Assembly (NCBI GenBank): GCA_943840615.1
Contig: CALSVI010000008.1
Location: 186,001-250,000, forward strand
DNA: 64,000 bases
Direction: 5' to 3'
DNA from: an uncultured Luminiphilus sp.
GTDB taxonomy: Bacteria > Pseudomonadota > Gammaproteobacteria > Pseudomonadales > Halieaceae
Part shown: positions 24,983 through 26,568 of the stretch, one piece after another
Layout of the letters: each line of letters opens with the position of its first letter
Position numbering within the stretch: position 1 is the stretch's first letter
Notes under the pieces: generated by a model
What the model was told of the DNA's origin: nothing
Databases searched by the model: none
The model's input: the letters and a program-made list of their open reading frames with translations, nothing else
Made by a program: the position numbers and the translations under genes

Positions 24983-25116
24983 AGTGTTTACCCCTCGTAA
25001 AACGGGCGCGATTCTTTCAGAGATGGATCAGCGAGGAAAGCACTTTCGTTCCGCATTGCCCAATATTCTCAATGCCGGTAAACTGCGCGCCGCGCGGGAG
25101 CCGATGCTTCCGTGTT

Positions 25117-25193
25117 CGGGGTGTAGCGCAGTCTGGTAGCGCGCCTGCTTTGGGAGCAGGATGTCGGGGGTTCGAATCCCTCCACCCCGACCA
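25117..25193 (+). tRNA. tRNA-Pro (anticodon TGG)
   Basis: A 77-base cloverleaf with encoded CCA. The acceptor CGGGGTG pairs with CACCCCG; the D stem GCGC pairs across the loop. The anticodon stem is CCTGC/GCAGG with loop TTTGGGA, giving TGG. The T arm is GGGGG-TTCGAAT-CCCTC. It lies between folD and tRNA-His, a gap that holds tRNA genes in Pseudomonas too. Confidence 0.97.
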
Positions 25194-25266
25194 TCTCTTC
25201 TCATCGATGCTGTGAGAGGAGGAGCCTTCGGGTTGGTGCGTTATCAGTCTTCACGCGCCTCTTGAT

Positions 25267-25343
25267 GGTGGCTGTAGCTCACCAGGTAGAGCACCGGATT
25301 GTGACTCCGGAGGTAGCGGGTTCAAGACCCGTCAGCCACCCCA
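25267..25343 (+). tRNA. tRNA-His (anticodon GTG)
   Basis: The encoded extra 5' G (G-1, at 25267) faces discriminator C, the histidine identity pair. The acceptor GTGGCTG pairs with CAGCCAC. The anticodon stem is CCGGA/TCCGG with loop TTGTGAC, giving GTG. The T arm is GCGGG-TTCAAGA-CCCGT and CCA is encoded. Position 15 reads C and position 48 reads A, instead of the usual G15-C48 pair; see findings. Confidence 0.95.
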
Positions 25344-25448
25344 TTATCTTGTTTTACAGCCTGACCGCGGCAAGCAACGCTGCGCAACCGTGTGCTGGTG
25401 CAACGCCGGCTATGTGCGCGTGGGTGTCAATGCGTATTAGCGGGGGGT

Positions 25449-25473
25449 AAAAAAAAGGGGCAGTCCATGCCCC
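25449..25473 (-). terminator. intrinsic terminator on the minus strand
   Basis: On the minus strand GGGGCA, loop TGGAC, TGCCCC is followed at once by eight T residues, a textbook Rho-independent terminator. On the plus strand no T-tract follows, so it does not end the tRNA transcript. No minus-strand protein gene ends here, so it points to a short non-coding transcript starting to the right. Confidence 0.8.
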
Positions 25474-25556
25474 GGTATGGTGTGCTTCAGGCCTGGGTCT
25501 TGAGGCCATCCGTGGCCACCCGAAACTCACCCGTCGTCCTGACTTGCGCCTATACT
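25449..25556 (-). ncRNA. candidate small RNA with three GGA-loop hairpins (Csr/Rsm-like)
   Basis: Seen in sequence: a -10-like CATAAT at 25567-25562 (minus), then about 105 bases ending in the strong terminator. Three hairpins each show GGA in the loop: 25543-25533 (GTC, AGGAC, GAC), 25517-25504 (GGCCA, CGGA, TGGCC) and the terminator itself (GGGGCA, TGGAC, TGCCCC). The second and third match or nearly match CANGGANG, the RsmA/CsrA recognition motif. The first begins like Pseudomonas RsmY (GTCAGGAC). RNAs of this kind titrate CsrA/RsmA. No protein-coding frame explains the region. The class is inference, and no clear GacA upstream site was found. Confidence 0.55.
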
Positions 25557-25561
25557 GTTGC

Positions 25562-25770
25562 ATTATGAGACAAATAGCAAGCGATTTGCGAATTAATGCG
25601 CCGCAGCGGCCGTGGCGCCTAATAAAACAATTAAATCAAAGTATTAGAGAATAAAAATCAGTTTCTGTTAGCTGCCTAGCGGCGTGTAACGAGGCATAAA
25701 GTGGATGTTAACGCAAAATGCAACGAATGCGGCGCCTTCTGGCAGCCTGCGATAGGGGCTGCGTCAGTCT
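25562..25770. other. AT-richer intergenic region
   Basis: No convincing reading frame. The part at 25610-25680 is clearly richer in A and T than the surroundings, as expected for a promoter-proximal region of the candidate small RNA. No GacA-type TGTAAG-N6-CTTACA palindrome was seen. Confidence 0.5.
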
Positions 25771-26568
25771 CTAGGCTAGATAGCGGCCGATAAACTCGGT
25801 GAAGAACATGGGGTCCACCCACTTGAATGATGCCGCCTCAAACGTGTCGATTGTCGGGGTATCCGGAAAGGAGTAGTAGCGAGAGGGACCATCAGAGTGG
25901 ACGAGCGGCAGTGACCCGCCTTTCGTCATTGTCTCGATCGCACGCAGAAGAGCCTCACAGCCTGAGGGATATAGCCCGAGGGTGTTGGCCAGATAGCACT
26001 GTGACGGATGACGTGTGGTTGCCTGAACGCTAATGGTTCGGCCTGTATCGATCCCGGCATCGTCGATCCAGTGCAGCGTCGAGCAGAGTTCCTCGTCATT
26101 GGCCAACATGGCGCGAAAGGTAGCCATGACACCCCGATAGGCGGGTAGCCTACCCGAGTGAAGATTCAACACGCCCTTGAGTGGAAGAGAAATGGCCGGC
26201 ACATCAAGAATGCAGCCATACCGAATCGACACAGCGAGATCGGGCTCACTCGCGGCCAGTGTGGCAAGCCCCCGAGTCTCATTGGGTTCATTTAGGCTCG
26301 TCACGGGGGAGGACAGGTAATCGCTGAGCCCCTTAAAAGTGAGCAGTTCGCCCTTCGATCCTTGTGCGTCGATCAAGGGAAAAAGAAGCTCGTTGGGCAG
26401 CGTATGCTCATAAAAATTCAGCTCAGCGAGCGTGGGCTCGACGGGCTTACGTCCCACCGCGTCAGAACAGAAAACCTGCAGCTCGTGATTTTCGGAAAGG
26501 GCCGGTACAAGAAGATTCAGCGCGAAATTACTGGCGAGGTCGCGGTTGGTGAGGAAGGTGATGCGCAA
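25771..26568 (-). CDS. orphan formyltransferase-family protein
   Basis: The 265-residue protein belongs to the formyl transferase fold (Fmt, PurN, ArnA N-domain). The catalytic Asn and His appear in LNLHSGRLPAYRG and the catalytic Asp in WIDDAGIDTG. The protein is too short for Fmt and lacks its C-terminal tRNA-binding domain. The first available start is TTG at 26568; the frame is open upstream to a TAG near 26632 without ATG or GTG, so the N terminus is uncertain. It stands alone, divergent from xth. The formyl acceptor (sugar nucleotide, amino group or other) cannot be told from sequence. Confidence 0.7.
   Translation of the reverse strand: MRITFLTNRDLASNFALNLLVPALSENHELQVFCSDAVGRKPVEPTLAELNFYEHTLPNELLFPLIDAQGSKGELLTFKGLSDYLSSPVTSLNEPNETRGLATLAASEPDLAVSIRYGCILDVPAISLPLKGVLNLHSGRLPAYRGVMATFRAMLANDEELCSTLHWIDDAGIDTGRTISVQATTRHPSQCYLANTLGLYPSGCEALLRAIETMTKGGSLPLVHSDGPSRYYSFPDTPTIDTFEAASFKWVDPMFFTEFIGRYLA

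Follow-up and report, generated by a model that had tools for sequence, protein, structure and literature searches.

A candidate Csr/Rsm-type small RNA in the genus Luminiphilus (Halieaceae)

CsrA is a global regulator, and the usual activator of the Csr/Rsm small RNAs is GacA. The consensus loop for CsrA/RsmA is given as ANGGAN in the excerpted text of PMC3791407, and RNAs with one or two GGA motifs are described in that of PMC11882849 as binding CsrA far less strongly than the classical Csr sRNAs. Not all members of the class follow GacA; e.g. RsmW of P. aeruginosa binds RsmA and exposes three GGA motifs on outer loops, and GacA does not activate it (PMC4950607, in excerpt), which makes it a precedent for Rsm RNAs outside GacA activation. 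The candidate RNA described here would be similar to RsmW in these respects.

The window, i.e. the whole 64,000-nucleotide stretch that was analysed, comes from a draft genome (G000; 19 contigs, 2.09 Mb, completeness 82%) of a Luminiphilus sp., a genus that NCBI taxonomy places in the Halieaceae. The initial annotation had proposed a minus-strand RNA with a -10-like box, three hairpins exposing GGA and a terminator, and all of these are found where it placed them (Table 1), together with the fit of the hairpin 2 loop region, CACGGATG, to the RsmA/CsrA motif CANGGANG and the ATGGA of the terminator loop. The three hairpins are thus present, but the second is not a separate element, since folding of the window sequence places it at the top of an extended central hairpin. 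The start of hairpin 1 presumably resembles that of Pseudomonas RsmY. The 5' end of the RNA was set from the -10 box (near 25544-25545), which lies 17 nt from the -35-like box, and the 3' end was placed within the T run. From the GGA of hairpin 1 to that of hairpin 2 is 28 nt, and 45 nt more lead to that of hairpin 3, spacings that fall within the 10-60 nt over which one CsrA dimer can bridge two sites (PMC4066749, in excerpt). Near the unit in the window are glnS, cysS (from the ORF reading) and, on the minus strand, folD; an Exo_endo_phos gene lies on the plus strand beyond the formyltransferase-like gene.

Table 1. Features of the candidate small RNA locus, in window positions
Feature	Positions	Strand	Basis or remark
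tRNA-Pro	25117-25193	+	
tRNA-His	25268-25343	+	
Proposed sRNA, ~97 nt	25449..25545	-	Covariance models R1/R2 match model positions 1-95 of 95; alignment A6
Terminator T8 run	25449..25456	-	Sequence and terminator scan
Hairpin 3 / intrinsic terminator stem GGGGCATGGACTGCCCC, AUGGA in loop	25457..25473	-	GGA at 25464-25466
Long central hairpin (lower stem with hairpin 2 as tip)	25482..25528	-	Folding, covariation
Hairpin 2, GGCC-ACGGAU-GGCC	25504..25517	-	GGA at 25509-25511
Hairpin 1, GUC-AGGAC-GAC	25533..25543	-	GGA at 25537-25539
-10-like box CAGTAT	25552..25557	-	CATTAT, TACT, TATTAT in relatives; conserved TGC(A/G)A precedes
-35-like box TTGCTA	25575..25580	-	In most relatives TTGA.. or TTTACA; column conservation peaks here across 22 upstream regions
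Formyltransferase-like gene	25771-26568	-	3' end ~225 nt upstream of the sRNA unit

A search at the DNA level covered 58 genomes, of which 36 were further genus members; it returned the window's own copy and six more, all within the genus. A covariance model built from these seven copies (R1) matched 20 of 140 family genomes under stricter filters, again all of the genus, and a second model built from those 20 copies (R2) yielded three further copies (E 2.5e-6, 1.1e-5 and 3.4e-4) in the 37 remaining genus genomes, where two weaker hits (L104, E 0.06; L105, E 0.12) were rejected as terminators without GGA hairpins. The RNA is present in 23 of 57 genus genomes, the source genome included. In a sample of 390 genomes of the order, searched with strict filters, R2 returned G000 and G015 plus a weak match in a genome of another family (G182, E 0.005). 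A pattern search of contigs gave 28 stretches, of which 12 are Luminiphilus/Halieaceae copies, mostly on the same contigs as the counted genomes, and 16 belong to other bacteria, are by eye without the promoter and terminator of the sRNA, and were excluded from all counts. Seven of these 16, in which the pattern is present by construction, nevertheless score 20.5-28.9 bits with R2 (E 0.0002-0.01), near the 34.5 bits of the weakest accepted copy (L103), so that the separation is not clean. The Pseudomonas setting in which the RNA had been framed does not hold, since the relatives found are Luminiphilus/Halieaceae. No copy is seen in 34 of the 57 genus genomes, among them three single-contig genomes (G006, G030, G077) that all have csrA; the sRNA is therefore not an obligatory partner of csrA.

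Placement relative to the tRNA-Pro/tRNA-His pair is readable for 18 of the 23 copies, and in all 18 the RNA lies beyond the 3' end of tRNA-His and is encoded on the other strand. The distance to tRNA-His is at most about 0.4 kb in 12 copies, ~1.5 kb in G032, 5.5-6.5 kb in G002, G065, G031 and G061, and 6.0 kb in G073. For 19 copy-less genus genomes the tRNA pair was retrieved, and there the 420 nt after tRNA-His are a different sequence. An Lrp-type gene adjoins all seven of the copies L062-L065 and L101-L103; that these form a separate locus was rejected for four of them (G002, G065, G031, G073), where tRNA-His is found on the same side at a distance of 5.5-6.2 kb, the sequence of the other three (G068, G033, G015) being readable only short of tRNA-His. 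The Lrp-type gene beside the G002 copy (L062:1839-2304) matches in two pieces with a break, and may be broken.

Conservation was judged on a free MAFFT alignment of all 23 copies (A6) and on an alignment of 20 copies fitted to the model (A4). The initial annotation had named lack of conservation of the GGA loops in relatives as evidence that would speak against it, and covariation in relatives as a check. On A6 the loop of hairpin 1 has GGA in 23/23 copies (displaced by one base in L103), hairpin 2 has the ANGGAN hexaloop in 23/23, with the A and GGA fixed and the second and last letters varying, and the loop of hairpin 3 has GGA in 17/23 (absent in L054, L055 and L057-L060); two or more A(N)GGA loop motifs, the mark of the Csr/Rsm class, are conserved. 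Counted per copy, GGA sites number 2 to 5 (22 copies), with three in the window and only two in six copies. Copies are 90 to 108 nt long, and the differences in length are not multiples of three, which argues against a coding sequence.

The stems vary in a way that keeps them paired: in hairpin 1 a U-A pair becomes C-G in three copies, and in hairpin 2 GGCC/GGCC becomes GGUC/GACC in three and AGUC/GACU in three, plus one U-G pair. The five-pair stem of hairpin 3 is invariant in 23/23 copies and, because it never varies, is uninformative on pairing. The covariation score stands above all 500 shuffles on both alignments (A4, 0.288 vs 0.123±0.013; A6, 0.192 vs 0.131±0.013), with all slid registers lower, and in the first seven copies alone one of 500 shuffles reaches each covariation measure. 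Lower-stem pairs changed on both sides number 10 of 11 on A4, which is model-fitted, and 8 of 10 on A6, where the lower stem is paired in only 64% of cells. Other measures on A6 are weaker: both-side pair changes number 11, a value reached by 22/500 shuffles, and further pair types are not above shuffles (22 vs 23.3), with two slid registers higher (23 and 26). RNAalifold, unaided, gives the same three hairpins on A4.

These features also bear on a trans-acting, Hfq-type sRNA, the GGA loops of which would pair with mRNA rather than bind CsrA. The terminator tail, U-rich in most copies including the window's, is consistent with such an RNA, as is an AAGACCC-like stretch between the arms of the central hairpin that is kept in part of the family; however, the invariant part of the RNA is the hexaloop, whose pattern of fixed and variable letters is that predicted by CsrA recognition, the stem changes preserve pairing, and six copies have no U tail. 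The Hfq-type reading is consequently improbable, although it fares best among the alternatives to a CsrA-binding RNA.

The six copies in question (L063-L065 and L101-L103) are distant ones with no T run after hairpin 3. All six keep the GGA loop of hairpin 3, versus 11 of the 17 remaining copies, which suggests that this loop is retained for more than termination. The RNA of these copies may be ended by Rho or may run on. Beyond hairpin 3, L063-L065 have a mostly C-rich, G-poor stretch, followed by a convergent Lrp-type gene.

As to transcription, upstream boxes ~17 nt apart are conserved, most clearly in the 16 closest copies, and together with the terminator they give the appearance of an independent unit on sequence grounds, apart from the six distant copies with no T run. 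Some relatives have a clear palindrome in the promoter spacer, which is degenerate in the window and is not claimed. Two of the 23 copies are at contig ends and stand outside the count of neighbors; in the 21 loci that could be read, the closest frame upstream with at least 130 aa is on the same strand in 12, divergent in eight (L049, L057, L059, L062, L063, L065, L102, L103), and ambiguous in one (L064, where a same-strand frame is antisense to a longer divergent frame). The divergent neighbors at eight loci indicate that the sRNA is probably a gene in its own right. The statement that no protein gene ends at this terminator has to be qualified, since in the window the formyltransferase-like gene, on the same strand, ends ~225 nt upstream, but the divergent neighbors in relatives point to a separate unit. 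An origin like that of RsmW, an RNA with seven GGA that derives from the PA4570 3'-UTR (PMC4950607, in excerpt), would make the RNA a 3'-UTR piece of the formyltransferase-like gene, and its terminator the terminator of that gene. The same-strand neighbors favor this, but the divergent ones do not, and the promoter boxes, which the RNA has as its own and conserved, are seen in both groups; such an origin is quite unlikely.

Taken alone, the window sequence is at chance level: the fold z-score of the unit is -1.30, with 17 of 200 shuffles folding as well, one terminator was found in 25000-26000 vs 1.0 expected, and no site in 25000-26000 passes a promoter consensus scan. Cross-genome conservation is decisive in lifting the unit above chance, and against that conservation, which includes the GGA loops, and the covariation, the idea that GGA motifs fell by chance into an intergenic, terminator-bearing region is scarcely credible, even though the single-sequence statistics would agree with it.

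Absence of csrA from the genome had also been named as a possible refutation, and here the outcome is mixed: csrA (PF02599) was not found in the window's own 82%-complete draft, but it is present in 13 of the 23 sRNA carriers, and in 39 of the 57 genus genomes. lysC adjoins csrA in the 4/4 loci inspected, three of them from carriers, and the window's draft has no lysC either. Eight of the ten csrA-less carriers were searched for lysC (G031 and G073 being the other two), with none found in six, including G000, and a weak 28% match in G076; the contig of G029 ends 14 codons into csrA. Since the neighboring lysC is absent too, and since a contig breaks inside csrA in G029, the absence from the window's draft is probably an assembly gap. 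Loss of csrA in the window's lineage was judged to be less fitting, although one carrier that is 95% complete (G036) has neither csrA nor lysC, and this stays against a gap. The CsrA proteins inspected (4/4) keep Thr5, Gln29, Arg31 and Arg44, which are RNA contacts of CsrA according to the excerpted text of PMC3791407.

The GacA box TGTAAG-N6-CTTACA has seven 3-mismatch sites in the window, where 10.6 would be expected, and all of them are more than 2 kb from the sRNA; in 22 upstream regions the best sites average 4.23 mismatches of 12 vs 4.31 when shuffled; a 3-mismatch site is found upstream of two copies (L060, L063). NF007018 (PRK09483.1), which we take to be the UvrY/SirA/GacA model, gives at most 78.9 bits in 12 Luminiphilus genomes, vs a cut-off of 280. 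None of 37 Halieaceae (in the set of 58 genomes round G153) reaches 140 bits, the best being 138.9, whereas in other families of the order 14 of 21 genomes reach at least 272 bits and 7 of 21 fall below, so that absence is not unique to the Halieaceae. A diverged GacA in the Halieaceae is possible. Control of the sRNA is thus probably not by GacA, as judged from these box and model searches. One tentative scenario, to which we give somewhat less than even odds, is that GacA was lost in the Halieaceae, that CsrA and a dedicated sponge RNA were retained in Luminiphilus at least, the RNA now being under a different conserved promoter, and that the Csr switch was rewired to another input. The most interesting part is this setting in a family with no recognizable GacA, where the sRNA would be a natural test of Csr sponge control after loss of the usual activator.

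Hairpins of similar appearance were seen in other bacteria. Genomes of the Rhodanobacter/Lysobacteraceae type have GTCAGGATGAC (GTCAGGACGAC in L041) and a long hairpin topped by GGCC-ANGGAT-GGCC directly after a stop codon (L025:186-509 on the minus strand, L022, L023, L028, L031, L033, L035, L036, L038, L039, L041, L043); in most, the end of the preceding gene resembles dihydrolipoamide dehydrogenase by eye, and no Rfam family matches these loci at gathering. In L025 this stretch is repeated in tandem, with 5.8 copies of a 56-nt unit, which looks like an array of CsrA-type hexaloops. In G182, of the other family of the order, L106:1428-1590 has the motifs ATC-AGGAC-GAT, CAGGGAAG and CCGGATC, as well as a strong T-run terminator; it is possibly another Csr-type sRNA, and has no Rfam match above cut-off.

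On balance the RNA is read as a Csr/Rsm-type sponge, with a probability of roughly 0.8: an independent non-coding RNA with two to three CsrA/RsmA hairpins. It would be transcribed from its own promoter, its A(N)GGA loops would present two to three CsrA/RsmA recognition sites, and CsrA would be titrated away from mRNA leaders, as it is by RsmY/RsmZ and CsrB. Sequence comparison bears out the conserved structure, the loops, the promoter boxes and the terminator, and places csrA in the lineage; transcription, CsrA binding and sequestration we infer. Counted against the sponge reading are the few GGA sites, the csrA-less G000 draft and G036, the 34 of 57 genomes with no copy, and the weak measures on A6. 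If correct, the reading would give the OM60/NOR5 (Halieaceae) clade of marine bacteria a Csr/Rsm antagonist RNA, and Rfam 15 would gain a covariance model it lacks. In the open-access literature, which leaves out most subscription papers, nothing was found on CsrA small RNAs or GacA in Halieaceae; a search on Luminiphilus small RNA returned phototrophy work only, and csrA is unmentioned among the OM60/NOR5 matches listed.

Comparison with the known systems begins with Rfam. Its Csr/Rsm models match nothing in the window at gathering, and relaxing the limit to E 10 for 25200-25800 and to E 5 for 20 of the 22 relatives' loci also brought no match; the RsmX, RsmY, CsrB and CsrC models were run on individual loci. 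Weak matches to ncS54, tmRNA_permuted and suhB are far below cut-offs and were taken as chance. PrrB_RsmZ (RF00166) is above cut-off in 0/140 Halieaceae, but also in 0/14 control genomes, so that this count is without a positive control; sub-threshold matches in L130-L132 (26-29 bits) were rejected, since each resembles the end of a coding gene and its terminator. The description as a new member for its lineage is thus apt. From Pseudomonas RsmX, RsmY and RsmZ the RNA differs in having no Rfam match to them even at relaxed thresholds and no evident GacA box, yet its length is similar to the 133 positions of RF00166 and near the 110 nt of Pseudomonas rsmX-2 (PMC7911923, in excerpt), and the loop of RsmZ hairpin 2, AAGGAU, is an ANGGAN hexaloop like that of its own hairpin 2 (PMC3791407, in excerpt). 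Its two to five GGA per copy are fewer than the seven of RsmY (PMC4950607), the 22 of CsrB and 14 of CsrC, and the 25, 21 and 9 of Pseudoalteromonas Pf1-Pf3 (PMC11882849), as these sources give them in excerpt. With CsrB, CsrC and Pf1-Pf3 the proposed role nevertheless has the logic of CsrA titration in common, and the RNA, although matched by no Rfam Csr/Rsm model, would be a new member of a known functional class and not a new kind.
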